From an uncultured Oscillospiraceae bacterium (GTDB lineage: Bacteria > Bacillota > Clostridia > Oscillospirales > Oscillospiraceae), in assembly GCA_934591845.1 (NCBI GenBank), contig CAKTPO010000001.1, positions 62,001 through 126,000 on the forward strand: a stretch of 64,000 bases of DNA. Reading direction: 5' to 3'. A program made the translations under genes and the position numbers. The notes beneath the pieces are model-generated. The model was given only the letters and a program-made list of their open reading frames with translations, was not told the origin of the DNA and ran no database searches. Below are positions 1,165 through 62,087 of this stretch, piece after piece; positions within the stretch are counted from its first letter, which is position 1, and each line of letters opens with the position of its first letter.

Positions 1165-2154
1165 ATGAAAGTTGCATTTTTTGATACCAAACCCTATGAT
1201 ATTCCCGGTTTTGACCACTATTCCGCCAATTCTGATTTGCAGATCAAGTATTTTGAAACCCGGCTGAACGAGGATACGGTGTCTCTGGCCCAGGGCTATG
1301 ATGCGGTGTGCGTGTTTGTAAACGATACGGTTTCCGCCACTGTGGTGGAGAAGCTCTGCGAAATGGGGGTCAAGGTTCTGGTGCTTCGGTGCGCCGGCTT
1401 TAACAATGTGGACATCCGGGCTTGCCAGGGAAAGCTTCCCGTTTACCGTGTACCCGCCTACTCTCCCTACGCTGTGGCCGAGCATGCCATGGCTCTGCTG
1501 CTGACCATCAACCGCCGGACCCACAAAGCCTATATCCGCACCCGGGACTTCAATTTCAGTCTCCAAGGGCTGGCTGGCTTTGACCTGCACGGAAAAACCG
1601 TGGGCATCGTCGGCACCGGCAAAATTGGCCGTGTCTTTGCCGACATTTGCAAGGGCTTTGGCATGAACATTCTGGCCTATGACAAATTCCCCGTTAAAGA
1701 CAGTGGCCTAAACTACGTGGAGCTGCCGGAGCTTTTTGAAAAATCTGACATTATCTCCCTCCACTGCCCCCTGACCGAGGAGACCCGGCATATTATTGAT
1801 GCCGCCTCCATCGCCAGAATGAAGAAAGGCGTTACCATTATCAACACCTCCCGTGGCGCTCTGGTCAATACTGAGGATTTGATCAACGGCATCAAGGACA
1901 AGAAGGTAGGTGCCGCCTGTCTGGACGTTTACGAGGAGGAAGGTGACTTCTTCTATGAAGACTTCTCTGGTCATATCGTGCAGGATGACAAGCTGGTACG
2001 GCTCATTGCCATGCCCAATGTGATCGTCACTTCCCACCAGGCGTTCCTGACCCAGGAGGCGTTGGACAGCATCGCCAACACCACCATTGACAACCTGACC
2101 CGGTTCTTCCAGGGAAATCCCAACGAAACCACTGAGGTTCGCTATAATTCCTGA
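1165..2154 (+). CDS. ldhA: D-lactate dehydrogenase (2-hydroxyacid dehydrogenase)
   Basis: A 329-residue NAD-dependent D-2-hydroxyacid dehydrogenase, probably reducing pyruvate to D-lactate in the cytoplasm and regenerating NAD+ during fermentation. Visible features: Rossmann motif VGIVGTGKIGRVFADICKG (about 146-164), the catalytic Arg in INTSRGALVNTEDL (about 229), Glu in LDVYEEEGDFFYED (about 258) and His in VTSHQAFLTQEAL (about 292). These follow the LdhA/VanH branch, including the long acidic insert after the Glu. GGAGG lies 8 bases before the ATG. It is a single gene with its own strong promoter and a terminator at 2263-2305. Other 2-hydroxyacid substrates cannot be excluded. Confidence 0.92.
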   Translation: MKVAFFDTKPYDIPGFDHYSANSDLQIKYFETRLNEDTVSLAQGYDAVCVFVNDTVSATVVEKLCEMGVKVLVLRCAGFNNVDIRACQGKLPVYRVPAYSPYAVAEHAMALLLTINRRTHKAYIRTRDFNFSLQGLAGFDLHGKTVGIVGTGKIGRVFADICKGFGMNILAYDKFPVKDSGLNYVELPELFEKSDIISLHCPLTEETRHIIDAASIARMKKGVTIINTSRGALVNTEDLINGIKDKKVGAACLDVYEEEGDFFYEDFSGHIVQDDKLVRLIAMPNVIVTSHQAFLTQEALDSIANTTIDNLTRFFQGNPNETTEVRYNS

Positions 2155-2262
2155 TAGTATTTTTTCCGGATTCGACAGTTTCCCCTTGTAAAAAAGCAGT
2201 CTGATTCGCTACTCTAGTCGATGGCAGACTTCCCCCAATTTTATGCGACAGGTTTGCCAGAA

Positions 2263-2305
2263 GCGCCGCCCCGGCTCTCCCCCGGGACGGTGCTTTGTTG
2301 TTTTA
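2263..2305 (+). terminator. Terminator after ldhA
   Basis: A 12-bp stem (GCGCCGCCCCGG at 2263-2274 with CCGGGACGGTGC at 2282-2293, two G-T pairs) is followed by TTTGTTGTTTT. It lies about 110 bases after the ldhA stop and directly before the 161-bp element. Confidence 0.7.
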
Positions 2306-2306
2306 T

Positions 2307-2467
2307 GGAAGCTCTGATTAAATCGGCAAGAGCTGGCAGTGAGAGATTTTGTTTTCAGGCAAGGTATGGAAAGTGGAGGAATACTTTGTGTATTTCCCAC
2401 TTTTCATACCGCAGACTGGGAGCAAAAGATCCACTGTCCAGCCGCAGGCGATTTATTCAGAGGTTCC
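2307..2467. repeat. 161-bp inverted-repeat element, copy 1
   Basis: The ends are 19-base inverted repeats (GGAAGCTCTGATTAAATCG at 2307-2325 and CGATTTATTCAGAGGTTCC at 2449-2467, 17 of 19 matching). The centre is a long hairpin of about 22 bp around the loop TTTGT (arms about 2363-2384 and 2390-2410), with a further imperfect stem between ends and centre. A second copy of exactly the same length is at 24365-24525. Differences in the central stem are largely compensated (GGTATG/CATACC here, GGTTTG/CAAACC there). The right end abuts the TAA stop (2468-2470) of the SipL-like gene, so on the minus strand it would be its 3' UTR. The flanks TTAT and TTAC only weakly suggest a target duplication. It could be a non-autonomous mobile element or a structured 3'-UTR RNA. 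Confidence 0.85.
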
Positions 2468-3958
2468 TTACGATAGAGGGATCAAAAGCATTTGCCCCTT
2501 GTTTGGCTCCTCAGTCAGTCCGTTTGCCTGGGCAATGGCCGCCATGGTAGAGCCGCTTTCCTTGGCCAGCTCCCACAGCCCTGCATCTCCGGCCCGGCGC
2601 AAAATCAGACTGGGCCGGGACAAATCTCTGGCCACCGGCTCCCCCAGTTCCATGGAAGATACCACATTCAGGCCGTCTTTGGACAGCACGGTCAGATGAA
2701 CACCCAAATCCATGGTGATTTTTCCTGCCCCCGGATTTAATTGGAGAGGGCCCGGGGTCATCCCAGTAACGGCCAGCCGCATCCCTTCAACGGCTTTTAC
2801 TTCGGTGCAGCCCTGCCAGCCTACCGCAAAGTCCTCTATCCCCTGCTCCTGCTGGGAGAGAAGTTCTATGGTTCCCGTGCTTTCCAAGCGGTATCCCCCG
2901 GGGATCGGGTCCCAGAGAGGAAACTCCCAGAGCACGGCCATGTCCGCTTCGCTGTGGATTTCAGCCGGGAGTGCCGCTTCCCCGGCCAGTGTCTCCCACC
3001 GCTGTTCCAGAATGGATGTTGCAGGAAGTACCTGCCGGTTCAGTTTCAGAGGTCTTAGGGTGCTGTAGCCATCCTCCACGACCTGGATTTTTGTTACGTC
3101 ACTGACGGCATACTGGGCCGTAAAGGCAGCTTTTACCACCTTGCTTCCGTCACCGCCTTCCTCAAGCTCTAAACTCGTCACACAAATCTGAACGTCGACC
3201 TCCGCCTCGGAGCCGCAGGCCCGGTCCAGCTCCGCCAGCTGGGAAAACGGGAATGTAAAGTCCCGTCCTACCAGCTCCCCCTCCGGGCTGCAGAACAGCA
3301 CATGCAGATTGACCGCACCCCGGAAGGCGATTTTATCGCCCACCACTTTCTGCTCTGTCAGCACCGGCTGTGCGGTGCTGTAAAAAACCTTTTGTCCCGT
3401 CATGTCCATGCCGGAGGCAGATAAGGGTTCCTCCATGGCAAAGCTTTTTTCGCCCGCCTGGCCAAACAGCCGGAGTGGAACCGTCTTTTGCAGAAGCTGT
3501 ACGTCTTCCGGCACGGCATCCGGTTCCGGAAAGGACAAATTCTCCGGTACCAGGGCCATGAGATTCAGGCCAATACCGCAGCGAACCAGTATCTTTCTGG
3601 GGGACAAAGAACGGCCATCCAGAAAACGGATCAGTGGCTGCACCAGAATACTGCCGTCCCGGCTATCTCTGGGCAGTTCCCATTTTGCCTGAAAAGGCAC
3701 CCAGCTGTCCAGCATTTGCGGTGTCCCCTCCCCTTCCGGCTTATACAGCACCCGAAGCATCAGGCCGCCGGAAACCAATACGGTATCCGTTCGCCATTCC
3801 TTGCTGCGGAGGATCAGCTGCCCCCAGCAACCTAAAATACGGTCAATATCCGGCAGACCCTCCGGCACACGAACCTCCTGGGTCTGCTCCAAATTCCTGC
3901 ATTCCAAAATCACAGGTTCCAGATAGGAAATCTCCCTATTTTTCAATTGCAGCTCCAC
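2468..3958 (-). CDS. SipL-like SPOCS (DUF3794) and LysM domain protein
   Basis: A 496-residue protein with repeated SPOCS/DUF3794-type beta-rich regions (about 30-400) and a C-terminal LysM domain (about 450-495, containing GDAGLWELAKESGSTMAAIA and ending in LLIPLS). This order matches SipL, which in Clostridioides difficile binds SpoIVA through its LysM domain and is needed to assemble the spore coat around the forespore. The start was set at GTG 3958 because AAGGAG lies 8 bases upstream; an earlier in-frame GTG overlaps that site. No signal peptide is visible, in keeping with a mother-cell cytoplasmic role. The family also occurs in Clostridia not known to sporulate, so the role is inferred. 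Confidence 0.75.
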   Translation of the reverse strand: MELQLKNREISYLEPVILECRNLEQTQEVRVPEGLPDIDRILGCWGQLILRSKEWRTDTVLVSGGLMLRVLYKPEGEGTPQMLDSWVPFQAKWELPRDSRDGSILVQPLIRFLDGRSLSPRKILVRCGIGLNLMALVPENLSFPEPDAVPEDVQLLQKTVPLRLFGQAGEKSFAMEEPLSASGMDMTGQKVFYSTAQPVLTEQKVVGDKIAFRGAVNLHVLFCSPEGELVGRDFTFPFSQLAELDRACGSEAEVDVQICVTSLELEEGGDGSKVVKAAFTAQYAVSDVTKIQVVEDGYSTLRPLKLNRQVLPATSILEQRWETLAGEAALPAEIHSEADMAVLWEFPLWDPIPGGYRLESTGTIELLSQQEQGIEDFAVGWQGCTEVKAVEGMRLAVTGMTPGPLQLNPGAGKITMDLGVHLTVLSKDGLNVVSSMELGEPVARDLSRPSLILRRAGDAGLWELAKESGSTMAAIAQANGLTEEPNKGQMLLIPLS

Positions 3959-4029
3959 GGAACTCACTCCTTCATGATCGCAGTTCGATTCTGGGTAACT
4001 CTATGTGCCTCCAAGGGTGTTTATGCCCT

Positions 4030-24321: not shown

Positions 24322-24355
24322 AAAAATGACCGGCACCCAGAAAGGCACCGGTCAT
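24322..24355 (-). terminator. Terminator after pepD
   Basis: On the minus strand ATGACCGGTGCC pairs with GGTGCCGGTCAT (12 bp with two G-T pairs) and is followed by TTTTTGA. It lies 10 bases past the 161-bp element, so that element is inside the pepD 3' UTR. Confidence 0.8.
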
Positions 24356-24364
24356 GGTATCTAT

Positions 24365-24525
24365 GGAAGATCTGATTAAATCGACAAGAGCTGACGGCGA
24401 AAGATTTTGCTTCCAGGCAAGGTTTGGAAAATGAGGGAATACTTTGTGTATTTCCCATTTTTCAAACCGCAGACTGGGGGCAAAAGATTCGCTGCTCAGC
24501 CACAGACGATTTATTCAGAGTTTCC
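24365..24525. repeat. 161-bp inverted-repeat element, copy 2
   Basis: This copy has the same length and layout as 2307-2467. The ends GGAAGATCTGATTAAATCG and CGATTTATTCAGAGTTTCC match 16 of 19 in inverted orientation, and the central hairpin has the identical loop region ATACTTTGTGTAT. The stem has changed in pairs relative to copy 1 (AAAGTG/CACTTT to AAAATG/CATTTT). It is flanked by a direct repeat CTAT (24361-24364 and 24526-24529), which fits a 4-bp target duplication. It starts three bases after the pepD stop and is followed by a terminator. Confidence 0.85.
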
Positions 24526-24528
24526 CTA

Positions 24529-25971
24529 TTATAGCTCTTTCAGCACTTCCAGCAGGAAGTCCCAGGTGCGCTTGGTAGAGGCGATCTCCAGCTTTTCACG
24601 GCTGGTATGGATGTCGTGCATCTGCGGTCCAATGGACACGCAGTCCAGGCCCGGAAGCTTTTCGCCCAGCAGACCGCACTCAAGGCCCGCATGAATGGCC
24701 AGGACCTGCGGCTCTTTCCCAAACATCTTTGTATAAACGGATACCATCACATCCCGAAGCTTGGAGTCCTTTTTGTACTCCCAAGCGGGGTAAGTACCCA
24801 TCTGGCTGTAGGAAGCACCGTAGAAGTCCGCCAACTCCCGGAGTTTTCCGGTCAAGGCATCCTTCTCCTGGTTGACGGAGCTGCGGACGGAGAACGTCAC
24901 ACTGAAAGTCTCCCCCAGCTTGGCAACGCCCAGGTTCAGGCTGGTCTGCACCAGCTCCGGCATATCCGGGCAATAGGCCTGGACACCGTTTGGAACGGTA
25001 CACAGCAAAGAAATCACATCGGCGGTGGCAGTGGTGGTCAGGGCATTTCCGCCCAGTGCGTCTACGTCAAAGGCCTGAATTGTTGCCTCCGGCTCGTCAT
25101 AGGTCTGCCGGATCTCCTGCTGAAGCTCTGCAGCAATGTCGTTGATTCGCTCGATTCCAATACCCATGGCAACCACGGTAGCCTGGCAGGAACGGGGAAT
25201 GGCGTTGTCTTTGCTGCCGCCGGAGAAAGAGGTCAGACACAAAGGCATGAGCTTTTGGATACGGCCCAGGAACTCGCCCATGACCTTATTGGCATTGGCA
25301 CGGTTCTTGTCGATCTCCTGTCCGGAGTGACCACCCTGAAGATTCTCTACCGCCAGACGGACGCAGGGACCGTAAACCGCCTTTCGCTCCGCTTTCAGAG
25401 AAATGGTACTCCTTGCGCCACCGGCGCAGGATACCGTAAAGACGCCCTCGTCCTCAGAATCCAGATTCACCATAGTCCGCCCCTTCAGAGAGGACAGGTC
25501 AACAGCCGCCGCACCCAGCATGCCGATTTCCTCGTCCACCGTGATGATCACTTCCAGAGGTGGGTGGGCAATGGAAGGGTCATCCAAAATGGCCAGAGCG
25601 TAGGCAACAGCAATGCCGTCGTCGCCGCCCAGGGTGGTGCCTCGGGCGTAAACGGACACCCCGTCATGGGCCAGATCCAGCCCATCCGTGGCCATATCCA
25701 GGGTGCAGGCGGTATCTTTCTCACATACCATGTCCATATGGCCCTGAAGAATCACCGGCGCATGGTCCTCCATGCCGCAGGTACCGGGGGCAAAGAGGAT
25801 CACATTGTTGCTCTCATCCTGAATATAGGAAAGGTCATGGGCCTGGGCGAAGGCTACCAGGTAATCACTGATGGCCTTTGTATTGCGGCTGCCATGGGGA
25901 ATGGCGCAGATTTCTTCAAAATAACGGAAAACCGCCTGAGGCTCCAGCCCCTCCAGCTTTCTATCGGACAT
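24529..25971 (-). CDS. pepD: Aminoacyl-histidine dipeptidase PepD (M20)
   Basis: A 480-residue cytoplasmic zinc dipeptidase of the PepD/M20C type. Ligand motifs: LQGHMDMV (about 80), GGDDGIAVAYALAI (about 118), TVDEEIGMLGAAAVDL (about 150), NLDSEDEGVF and a final His in IHAGLECGLLGEKLPGLD (about 420). It cleaves unspecific dipeptides such as Xaa-His. ATG 25971 has AAAGGGG 9 bases upstream. Together with the M28 enzyme and the Liv transporter it points to growth on peptides and amino acids. Confidence 0.93.
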   Translation of the reverse strand: MSDRKLEGLEPQAVFRYFEEICAIPHGSRNTKAISDYLVAFAQAHDLSYIQDESNNVILFAPGTCGMEDHAPVILQGHMDMVCEKDTACTLDMATDGLDLAHDGVSVYARGTTLGGDDGIAVAYALAILDDPSIAHPPLEVIITVDEEIGMLGAAAVDLSSLKGRTMVNLDSEDEGVFTVSCAGGARSTISLKAERKAVYGPCVRLAVENLQGGHSGQEIDKNRANANKVMGEFLGRIQKLMPLCLTSFSGGSKDNAIPRSCQATVVAMGIGIERINDIAAELQQEIRQTYDEPEATIQAFDVDALGGNALTTTATADVISLLCTVPNGVQAYCPDMPELVQTSLNLGVAKLGETFSVTFSVRSSVNQEKDALTGKLRELADFYGASYSQMGTYPAWEYKKDSKLRDVMVSVYTKMFGKEPQVLAIHAGLECGLLGEKLPGLDCVSIGPQMHDIHTSREKLEIASTKRTWDFLLEVLKEL

Positions 25972-25992
25972 CAAAACAAACCCCTTTCATCC

Positions 25993-30792: not shown

Positions 30793-30883
30793 TGGCGGAG
30801 AGTCAGGGATTTGAACCCTGGCGACGCTTCCACGCCCTACGAGATTTCGAGTCACGCCTCTTCGACCACTTGAGTAACTCTCC
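30793..30883 (-). tRNA. tRNA-Ser (CGA)
   Basis: A minus-strand class II tRNA: acceptor GGAGAGT/ACTCTCC, discriminator G and encoded CCA (30793-30795). The anticodon loop CTCGAAA gives CGA, reading UCG. The long variable arm (GTAGGGCGTGGAAGCGTCGC region) and the TTCAAAT T-loop agree. This is the third tRNA-Ser in the window. Confidence 0.96.
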
Positions 30884-38809: not shown

Positions 38810-40207
38810 TTATCTTGCGTATTTTCCGCCCTTTTTCGGGTTATACCGTTTTTCGTGCTTGGCCTTTTCCCGGGGCTTTCCAAAGGAAAGCAGAACCACA
38901 ATGGCAGCCACCGCCACCACAAGGACACCAACCATCACCCAAACCCACACCGCACTGTAGATTTTAAGGCTTGCGGCATTCTCTGCCGTCAAAGCCAGGT
39001 CATCCGGCTTATTTTCCTGCTGGGTCTCCTCCGGCGTAGTCAGCACCGGGTCTACCCGTTCCACGGTTTCCCCGCAAACGTCACAAATGCCGGTACTCAG
39101 GCCGGTTTCAGACTCTGTAGCAGCCTTTTCTGTGGTCCATTGGTGAACTGTGTGGGCATGGAGCTGATAATGATCCCGGAAGCTGTAGCCGCAGGTGTCA
39201 CAGGTATATTCCGTATAGCCATAGTTCTGACAATCCGAGGCAACCACGTTTTCCGTATAATGGGGGTTGGCACACTTTTCCGGGCGAAGCTCCGTGTCAT
39301 AGGTTTTTACTTCATTCTTCCGGAGGGTTTTGGTGTTGTTATTGATGCCGTAATTGAAATTCATGGTTTTGAGCAGTTCGCCCACCACTTCCCCGCAATA
39401 GGCCCGCCGTTTGGCACTATGTTCAAAGAACGTAATGGAGGCATCAACAGTATTGCCGGTGATCTGGGAGCTTTTTCCCATGCCGATGGGGTATTGCAGC
39501 AGCATACCGGCCACGCCGCCGCTGTGGACAAAGCCATGCTCGGAGATATAGGCATCCAACCGGATATTACTGTCGGTAACAGACATAAAGCCAGTGGCAA
39601 ATGCACCGCCTAAAAACTGCTCGTCACTGGTCTGGGCATCGGTATCCACACAAATAAGGGTCACATCCACGGTGCAGCCGTCAATGGTGCCCACGCCATA
39701 GCCTAAAACACCTGCCACACCCAGAATGCCCTCATGCGCCCGCAACTCCAACTGGCCGGTAACTGTACATCCGGAAACCGTACTATCCATGCTGTAACCG
39801 GCGATACCGCCCAGGAAGCAAGGCTGGTCTGTTTCCACCAGGGCCCGGATATTAACAAGGTTCAGATTCTTGACCTCTGCCCCTTCCAGCTTGGCAAAGA
39901 GTCCTGCGTATACCGCCGGATACTCCTTCTGGTTCCCATCCAGAGCTGTTTCCGTATTTTCGCCAGGCTGGGTCACAGACAGATTCAGAATGCTGTGACC
40001 GTTTCCGTCCAGAGTGCCGGAAAAATCAAAGCAGTTCCAGGTGATGCCCTCCATGTCCAGATCCTCCGTAAGAACATAGCTTCCGGAAGGATCATTGGCC
40101 ATGGCTGCCAAATCCTCAGGTGTGGAGATTTCCGTGGGCGCCCCCTCTGCCCATGCAGGCATCGCCAAAGCCAGCAGAAGCATCACAAAACAAAACAACT
40201 TTCTCAT
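38810..40207 (-). CDS. Surface-anchored protein with GLUG-like beta-helix repeats
   Basis: A 465-residue exported protein. The signal peptide is MRKLFCFVMLLLALAMPAWA. Residues about 25-300 show repeated Gly-rich strands such as GGIAGYSMDSTVSGCTVTG, GVAGVLGYGVGTIDGCTVD and SGGVAGMLLQYP, like GLUG/beta-helix surface proteins. Then come Cys pairs (CDTCGYSF near 340, CDVCGETV near 385) that may bind metal or form disulfides, a Glu/Pro linker, one membrane helix (VWVWVMVGVLVVAVAAIVVL) and a basic tail. It is thus anchored by its C-terminus with the body outside. ATG 40207; promoter 40250-40278. The function is unknown, perhaps adhesion or wall interaction. Confidence 0.7.
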   Translation of the reverse strand: MRKLFCFVMLLLALAMPAWAEGAPTEISTPEDLAAMANDPSGSYVLTEDLDMEGITWNCFDFSGTLDGNGHSILNLSVTQPGENTETALDGNQKEYPAVYAGLFAKLEGAEVKNLNLVNIRALVETDQPCFLGGIAGYSMDSTVSGCTVTGQLELRAHEGILGVAGVLGYGVGTIDGCTVDVTLICVDTDAQTSDEQFLGGAFATGFMSVTDSNIRLDAYISEHGFVHSGGVAGMLLQYPIGMGKSSQITGNTVDASITFFEHSAKRRAYCGEVVGELLKTMNFNYGINNNTKTLRKNEVKTYDTELRPEKCANPHYTENVVASDCQNYGYTEYTCDTCGYSFRDHYQLHAHTVHQWTTEKAATESETGLSTGICDVCGETVERVDPVLTTPEETQQENKPDDLALTAENAASLKIYSAVWVWVMVGVLVVAVAAIVVLLSFGKPREKAKHEKRYNPKKGGKYAR

Positions 40208-40228
40208 TTCACTTTTCCATCCCCATCC

Positions 40229-40278
40229 GATTTATTCAGAGTTTATCTTATCATAACAGATTAGGAACCGTTTTGCAA
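40229..40278 (-). promoter_or_regulatory. Promoter of surface protein with element-end motif
   Basis: Minus-strand TTGCAA (40273-40278), 17 bases, TATGAT (40250-40255). Starting about five bases past the -10 the leader reads AAACTCTGAATAAATCG (to 40228/40229), identical to the end of the 161-bp element copy 2, though no element body follows. Confidence 0.6.
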
Positions 40279-61819: not shown

Positions 61820-62080
61820 AAAAAATAAGCGCCCTCTGTCCATTAAAAGACAGAGGGCGCATAAAGCACGGTACCACCTCAGTTTGGGAGAGCCTCACAA
61901 CCCACCCCTCATGCCGCCCCGCAGGCGGCGACGCTGTATCGGGCGCACCCGTCTTTCCCTACTGTTGCTTCAGGAAAGCCGCTCCGGGAGGTATGTTCTG
62001 CATAGGTTCCTGCCGCCTCGCACCCTCCGGCGGCTCTCTGAAAGGGATTCACTAAGCATACTTTTTCCCATCTCTGCGTT
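61820..62080 (-). promoter_or_regulatory. T-box riboswitch leader of tyrS
   Basis: On the minus strand the T-box core GAGGTGGTACCGTG lies at 61867-61881; TGGT would pair with the ACCA end of uncharged tRNA-Tyr. Downstream is the terminator stem GCGCCCTCTGTC/GACAGAGGGCGC (61829-61860) with a T-run (61819-61826). Upstream arms at about 61900-62060 include GC-rich stems as in stem I to III. Two Tyr triplets, UAC (61991-61993) and UAU (62002-62004), are candidates for the specifier. Confidence 0.92.
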
Positions 62081-62087
62081 GTGACGT

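Follow-up and report, generated by a model that had tools for sequence, protein, structure and literature searches.

A small MITE-like hairpin element of Oscillospirales whose internal module appears to be selected on one strand

A 161-bp hairpin occurs twice in the analysed window, which is a 64,000-nucleotide stretch of the genome of an uncultured Oscillospiraceae bacterium. Its mobility and selection on one strand of its interior were both supported by the data. The joint reading, which we consider probable, is that of a small non-autonomous, MITE-like element that would be mobilised in trans by IS5-type transposases, carries a module selected on one strand, most likely as RNA, and may benefit from folding harmlessly. 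The features of the window that bear on this reading are given below, where L542 is a locus of the related genome G773, R1 and R2 are models of the module, and A2 and A7 are alignments.

1165..2154, + strand: 2-hydroxyacid dehydrogenase gene, converging on copy 1 (Pfam; L542 protein 88% identical over 327 aa)
2260..2304, + strand only: intrinsic terminator of the dehydrogenase (hairpin and T tract), between that gene and copy 1 (terminator scan; conserved in L542)
2303..2306, no strand: TTAT, left target-site copy of copy 1 (sequence; TTATACC at the corresponding place in L542)
2307..2467, + strand (better-folding strand): first copy (copy 1) of the 161-bp mobile hairpin (direct repeat, fold; R1 match 2329-2446, E 1e-23; absent in L542)
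2307..2325, + strand: left end of copy 1, GGAAGCTCTGATTAAATCG (sequence; same end type in other genomes)
2330..2445, + strand: internal structured module of copy 1, 116 nt (alignment A2, pair counts, models R1 and R2)
2378..2397, + strand: apical hairpin GGAATACTTTGTGTATTTCC, the search key (sequence; 20-mer scan)
2449..2467, - strand: right end of copy 1, reverse complement GGAACCTCTGAATAAATCG (sequence)
2468..2471, no strand: TTAC, right target-site copy of copy 1, of which 2468-2470 is the SipL stop on the minus strand (sequence)
2468..3967, - strand: SipL-like gene (SPOCS domain), stop abutting copy 1 (Pfam PF12673, E 1.3e-17)
24322..24355, - strand: intrinsic terminator (hairpin and T tract) in the dipeptidase direction, beyond copy 2 (terminator scan, sequence)
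24361..24364, no strand: CTAT, left target-site duplication of copy 2 (sequence)
24365..24525, + strand: copy 2, 161 bp (repeat, fold; R1 match 24387-24504, E 9.4e-22)
24388..24503, + strand: internal structured module of copy 2 (A2 alignment, pair counts, R1 match)
24526..24529, no strand: CTAT, right target-site duplication of copy 2, last base within TTA 24529-24531 (sequence)
24529..25974, - strand: M20 dipeptidase-like gene, upstream of copy 2 (TIGR01893, E 2e-159)
40216..40244, + strand: stand-alone stretch similar to the element's right end and lacking a module (repeat family D4, 83% identity; alignment A7)

The two copies lay within a 173-nt repeat of 86% identity. Each was predicted to fold from end to end as RNA, copy 1 at -90.7 kcal/mol on the plus strand and -65.6 on the minus strand (z -13.9 and -9.1), and copy 2 at -81.9 and -63.2 kcal/mol (z -11.7 and -8.8); none of 200 shuffled sequences folded as well in any of the four tests. 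An earlier note on this DNA had described two stretches of equal length folding end to end, which agrees with these values, and the paired changes that it reported (GGTATG/CATACC to GGTTTG/CAAACC and AAAGTG/CACTTT to AAAATG/CATTTT, around a fixed loop) are present in the sequence. The 19-base inverted ends that it described could also be found, although they are imperfect, with 17 of 19 positions pairing in copy 1 by direct reading. Its observation that copy 1 touches the stop codon of the SipL-like gene exactly was confirmed, as the last base of the copy is 2467 and the complement of the stop, TTA, occupies 2468-2470. Copy 2 too adjoins a stop codon, the TTA at 24529-24531 of the dipeptidase-like gene. 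The flanks of copy 2 are CTAT on both sides, a perfect 4-bp duplication (24361-24364 and 24526-24529), and those of copy 1 are TTAT on the left and TTAC on the right, with one mismatch. There is no room for a transposase gene inside the 161-bp element. Elsewhere in the window, the solo end at 40216-40244 closely precedes the start of the minus-strand gene 38810-40207 and may be a remnant with the potential to act as promoter DNA. The window also contains a T-box leader (RF00230, 119 bits, window 61850-62083, minus strand) and three tRNA-Ser genes (197-285, 324-415, and 30793-30883).

Comparison with the related genome showed that copy 1 was inserted at the SipL stop codon in the window lineage, because L542 keeps the terminator and the gene order without the element: the SipL stop, in frame (TTATACC), comes after the dehydrogenase gene and the terminator hairpin without an intervening element, and no R1 module match was found in L542. 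The SipL proteins of the window and L542 are only 49% identical, so this is not a comparison between near-identical strains; G773 was drawn from the genus of G003, to which the window presumably belongs. In the genome JAUNND (G002), six copies of 161 bp had almost identical ends and were flanked by the duplications TTTA, AAAA, TAAA, TTTT, TTTT, and TAAT. Among the 167 distinct matches with enough flank, 54 showed ends pairing at 11 or more of 16 positions together with an exact 4-bp duplication, compared to 0 of 187 with shuffled flanks, a control that tests end pairing and duplication jointly; no recognised duplication was present in 113 of the 167. The sequences are related, and such counts therefore do not represent independent events. 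The commonest duplications were TTAG (11), CTAA (7), and TTAA (6), together 24 of 54. Sixteen of the 54 duplications were self-complementary words (ATAT, GGCC, GATC, AGCT, AATT) and possibly represent extensions of the palindrome, and the six TTAA duplications, also self-complementary, may in principle do the same. An element length of 159–161 bp was observed in 32 of the 54, and an inverted pair of at least 12 of 16 positions within the outer 45–110 nt was observed in 74 of 96 core hits, a count made with no control. The earlier note had left the choice between a structured RNA and a MITE that became a 3'-end module. Its MITE half is supported by the inverted ends, the 4-bp duplications in a subset, the high copy number, the empty site at copy 1, and the mostly different duplications of the six near-identical copies in one genome.

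Several unusual forms were seen among the matches. Very short palindromes consisting almost only of element ends were present in L584 (near 1685-1736, flanked by CTAA/TTAG) and L586 (898-955), and these may be either real deletions or short-read assembly artefacts. Tandem-repeated modules or half-modules were present in L123, L128, L201, and L216, and scanning of their surroundings revealed no inverted ends. A class of about 160 bp with the ends ATAC...GTAT or close variants (L129, L136, L141, L145, L148, L208, L210, L215, L232, and L239) showed no clear target-site duplication.

Relatives of the element are abundant in Oscillospirales, as seen in some of its gut and rumen members. Scanning of the exact 20-mer of the apical hairpin over 84,980 species genomes revealed at least 120 stretches, and the carriers were recorded as Oscillospiraceae, Ruminococcaceae, Clostridia, Clostridiales, Eubacteriales, Ruminococcus, Pseudoflavonifractor, Faecousia, and Scatomorpha, with one given just as Bacillota. 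Matches to R1 were obtained in 25 of 61 genomes of a family sample (E<=1e-3), 44 of 147 of an order sample, and 6 of 249 of a phylum sample (both E<=1e-6), the reference genome G001 being counted in each. Copy numbers from R1 are lower bounds, with at most 60, 25, and 14 candidates scored per genome in the family, order, and phylum samples, respectively; at least 46 matches were present in one draft genome of 2.3 Mb and at least 60 in another. A covariance-model search of relatives, of the kind suggested in the earlier note, yielded many further copies, with strongly covarying pairs. At gathering scores, Rfam gave no match to the element in the window, and in a search of eight loci at E<=1 none of its matches overlapped a module; L136 has a group II intron match (RF00029, 58 bits) at 6-112, some 7 kb away from its module on that contig. 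Neither blastn of the element against plasmids and phages nor megablast of window positions 20000-44000 against plasmids gave a match. Viral contigs contained one exact 20-mer match and at least 120 loci matching a gapped pattern; 5 were retained among 80 checked, and only L001, which has the same element as L142, looks like the element. In a literature search, mainly of titles, none of the titles listed named the element family.

The internal module was analysed in A2, an alignment by sequence of 54 modules in which the strand was set by the 20-mer. It was drawn from 68 dereplicated core hits, of which 14, mostly truncated or rearranged, were omitted before counting (L121, L150, L152, L159, L167, L170, L173 at 7467, L193, L196, L212, L216 at 6360, L219, L225, and L235); several of the omitted rows came from assembly CASFFN and may be assembly artefacts. 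Paired cells amounted to 91.5% compared to 68.8% in shuffled alignments, and both-side changes were observed in 415 cells compared to 125. At least one both-side change was present in 26 of 34 pairs, compared to 21.6 after shuffling, and the covariation score of 0.574 exceeded both the shuffled value (0.171) and that of slid partners (at most 0.133). The apical pairs could not vary in A2 because of the search key. In an alignment of 114 distinct R1-found rows fitted to that model, both-side changes were present in 32 of 34 pairs compared to 24.8 shuffled, with a score of 0.571 compared to 0.170. The mean information was 0.67 bits for unpaired internal columns, 0.69 for paired columns, and 0.24 for outer columns.

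Selection on structure was weighed against a purely DNA-level MITE, in which hairpin-templated repair or replication would copy one arm onto the other with no RNA role. Palindromic repeats can be symmetrised, and the short end-only palindromes of L584 and L586 and the truncated copies, some of them perhaps assembly artefacts, would fit such a process. Arm-copying, however, predicts no strand preference, yet the core strand folded better than its complement in all 54 modules of A2, with means of -55.1 and -41.2 kcal/mol. This result is not circular, because the strand was set by the 20-mer and not by the fold, and it persisted in 54 of 54 modules when the apical 20 bases were replaced by a self-complementary sequence (-52.2 compared to -42.4 kcal/mol). 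Among 218 matches without the 20-mer, 206 folded better on the model-chosen strand, a count that is partly circular. Two unpaired columns were also fixed in 53 of the 54 rows, and G-T/T-G cells outnumbered A-C/C-A cells outside the apical stem (110 compared to 37), which is weaker evidence since the pairs were taken from the fold of the core strand. The DNA-level process is therefore considered unlikely as the whole explanation, and the strand preference points to a single-strand role. The module is probably under selection as a single strand, RNA being the most likely form and single-stranded DNA the other.

The ends of the element vary while this interior is common to them. End types included GGAAGCTCTGATTAAATC, GGCAACACCGCATAATGG, GGCAACCTCTAATAATTC, GTAAACGATGATTAAWTC, and AGGCCTTGTTTGATAAATGG, and further types were GAGCCTGTTTAAAATCT, ATACTAATATTCAATC, ATACGGAAACCTGATG, and GGGCGGCGCAAATTAGGGAT. 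Model R2, built from 20 modules of the GGAA/GGCA group assigned by eye, was run on 41 loci carrying other ends or forms and matched the module in 40 of them, missing L270; the best E per locus ranged from 2.6e-21 to 1.4e-5. The search space was 238,727 bases, in which the strong matches fell on modules, with no unrelated long hairpins as a control. Loci selected by the 20-mer share the apical part by construction, so loci without the exact 20-mer provide the better test, and R2 matched such loci as well (for example L307-L310, L425, and L465). Model matching showed in this way a module of about 116 nt that is homologous across many end types.

A source of mobility was suggested by two loci with insertion sequences. 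L241 and L243 encode IS5-family transposases (NF033581, E 4.2e-99 and 6.7e-91, above cut-off and also recognised by Pfam) in an intact frame. In L241, the transposase lies between CTAA followed by GGCAGCACCGCACA and TGTGCGGTATTGCC followed by CTAA, a duplication recognised by reading, and these ends resemble one end type of the element; in L243, it lies between GGGAACCTCTAATAACT and AGTTTTTAGAGATTCCC, which resemble another end type and show no exact duplication. No R1 module match was found in either insertion sequence, so the module is not a deletion remnant of them. No transposase with the window's own end type was found among the matches listed in the draft genomes G001, G003, G006, and G773, the last of which was searched by end pattern only. 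The IS5-family transposases may recognise the ends of the element and move it in trans; its inverted ends and target sites would suit such transposition, and insertion sequences with resembling ends exist for two other end types. A module that survives the replacement of its transposon ends would presumably do so because it is helpful to the element.

A longer form consists of the module and a second, reverse-oriented hairpin, with ends that mimic a tRNA T-arm (GGTTCGAATCC), and was seen in L157, L260, L261, L262, L270, L195, L224, and L153. A tRNA reading of this form, suggested by its T-arm-like right end, was rejected, as ARAGORN found no tRNA in 18 loci; the right end is instead read as an element end, because the left end is its inverted repeat.

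The placement of single copies relative to genes was evaluated with a custom codon-usage gene caller, which was tried on the window and replaced earlier longest-open-frame calls; those were noisy, placing 33 of 77 'inside', and showed equal orientations (10 vs 10). From 330 matches, 317 remained after removal of opposite-strand shadows and short matches (A3 contains a few opposite-strand shadows, 3 among the 212 of A3 and A4). Among the 317, 58 lay near contig ends, 28 were duplicates, 36 belonged to paired modules, and 13 lacked a called gene on one side; with these set aside, 182 single copies remained, both window copies included. Intergenic positions accounted for 178 of the 182. In tandem contexts, the strong-fold strand was antisense to the genes in 77 cases and sense in 40 (p 8e-4, with no genome baseline); the last sample alone gave 24 antisense and 12 sense (p 0.065). 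A stop codon within 45 nt of the module was present on the antisense side in 51 of 106 cases and on the sense side in 11 of 69 (51 vs 11, p 3e-7), where the 45-nt limit was chosen after the distances of the first sample had been seen; the antisense side led in all five subsamples. A neutral orientation to genes is not supported.

These counts bear on a host-useful structured 3'-UTR RNA family, spread by transposition, which would stabilise or regulate the upstream mRNA. Such a role would suit the covariation of the module, the 62 stop codons (51 and 11) found within 45 nt of the module among the 178 intergenic copies, and copy 2, which lies between a stop codon and a same-direction terminator. 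The orientation excess, however, puts mostly the weaker-folding strand into the mRNA, which leaves a function of the strong strand as RNA within that mRNA unsupported. A terminator beyond the element was found for 8 of 48 abutting genes, in the wrong direction for 3 of 48, and on the sense side for 1 of 10, and was rejected as a general rule. The 3'-UTR position seen for copy 2 cannot be generalised, because the hairpin near copy 1 has its T tract on the dehydrogenase strand only and no terminator was detected in the SipL direction. The SipL locus of L542 does without the element. A host-useful 3'-UTR family is accordingly judged distinctly unlikely. The structured half of the earlier proposal is retained as regards covariation, one-strand folding, and nearly fixed unpaired bases, with the better-folding strand mostly antisense to the abutting gene. 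Its 3'-end module is retained as regards the intergenic position and the many copies starting at a stop codon, and is weakened by the antisense excess, by the few terminators beyond the element, and by the fact that YTAR-type insertion can itself produce the contact.

The favoured reading of a mobile, one-strand-selected element offers another account of the stop-codon contact. The target rule of the IS5 family is 4-bp YTAR, which contains TAA/TAG, so that the contact can be explained as a target-site effect. As YTAR holds stop codons in both directions, it explains the contact and not the orientation. In our reading, the orientation that places the strong fold in the mRNA would have been purged, and the target-site effect and this purging together may account for the stop-codon contact.

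Double forms, in which two modules stand back to back, occurred in several genomes. Adjacent module pairs within 60 nt numbered 38, of which 25 were 2–4 nt apart and 4 were 14–15 nt apart. All 29 of these close pairs read reverse then forward, compared to 3 of the other 9, the remaining 6 of which ran the same way; none of the 38 read forward then reverse. The outer flanks of close pairs often form the opposing arms of a host terminator, as in L307, where AAAAAATACGCTGCATCT precedes and AGATGCAGCGTATTTTTT follows the element. A flank complementarity score of at least 9 was reached by 19 of 25 double forms compared to 11.9% of mismatched flanks, and a score of at least 12 by 8 of 25 compared to 0.85%, several of the 25 coming from the same genomes. 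Insertion into terminator loops was rejected as a general rule for single forms (5 of 200 at a score of at least 9, compared to 2% of controls) and holds for double forms. Neither L573 nor L575 provided an exact pre-insertion terminator for a double form. In L573, whose genome shares its genus with G018, the gene corresponding to the one beside a double form has an ordinary terminator after it and no element, and this is not an exact empty site because the terminator has an unrelated stem; in L575, other sequence that lacks the element comes after the gene. A longer element is apparently nested in the apical hairpin of a double form in L585 (1121-1672), as if hairpin loops attracted insertion.

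The double forms, with their GC-rich apical stems bordered by A and T tracts at split terminators, could themselves be taken as bidirectional terminators. Both neighbouring genes could be called for 29 of the 38 pairs, and 14 of these 29 lay between converging genes, same-direction and looser pairs included. The window copies, by contrast, end in GGTTCC or GTTTCC without a T tract (by reading), neither shows a GC-rich hairpin followed directly by a T tract, and a separate terminator stands beside each. Only 29 of the 182 single forms lay between converging genes and 32 between diverging ones, numbers to be read with no genome baseline. A bidirectional terminator as the nature of the element is thus improbable. 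A single-stranded-DNA element of the REP/RAYT or attC kind, in which the folded strand is the enzyme substrate, is hardly probable either, for the one-strand fold, the conserved unpaired bases, and the stable single-stranded DNA fold of copy 1 (-46.1 kcal/mol) would suit it, whereas the inverted ends and 4-bp duplications suit DDE transposition.

Mobility with selection on one strand of the module, most likely as RNA, leaves the benefit of the fold to be considered. The simplest benefit would be that folding into a closed hairpin does little harm where the element is transcribed beside stop codons and inside terminator loops. A more specific proposal, which is possible and offered only tentatively, is that of an RNA module parasitic on transposon ends. 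Such a module would recur with many ends across Oscillospirales under one-strand selection and would be tolerated since its fold spares stop-codon sites and split terminators, the double form being specialised in terminator loops.

The element shares with IS5-family MITEs inverted ends starting with GG, 4-bp YTAR-like duplications, and the lack of a gene inside, and IS5-family elements with resembling ends are present in related genomes. It differs in its interior, which is not left over from those insertion sequences and stays conserved whichever of the many end types surrounds it. Conserved ends usually define a MITE family, and bacterial MITEs are normally treated as DNA-level leftovers; here the interior is conserved and the ends are variable. 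REP/BIME palindromes with RAYT transposases are hairpins with conserved unpaired bases and occur in inverted pairs. The element resembles them in such unpaired bases, and its double forms in the inverted pairing, and differs in having inverted ends and 4-bp duplications. Group IIC introns insert at terminator hairpins, and the double forms likewise occur at intrinsic terminators; unlike these introns, the element sits inside the loop and forms a DNA palindrome bounded by inverted ends, and Rfam shows no intron match at its modules. The bcr1 element of the Bacillus cereus group, of about 150 bp with mobile features, a predicted stem-loop, and tens of copies, is similar in size, mobility, structure, and copy number as far as the available parts of its descriptions go (PMC6542083, PMC2267715). 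In the same parts, bcr1 mobility is tied to a TTTAT motif and to one host group (B. cereus), and a module common to several end types is not described, whereas the present element has 4-bp duplications and hosts recorded as Oscillospiraceae, Clostridia, and related groups.

These results suggest that small mobile elements can carry and spread RNA-like structure. If transcripts confirm it, the element would represent a mobile RNA-like module that moves between transposon families. If the reading is true, it would also make it possible to examine directly how mobile DNA avoids doing harm in transcribed regions, even inside terminators.
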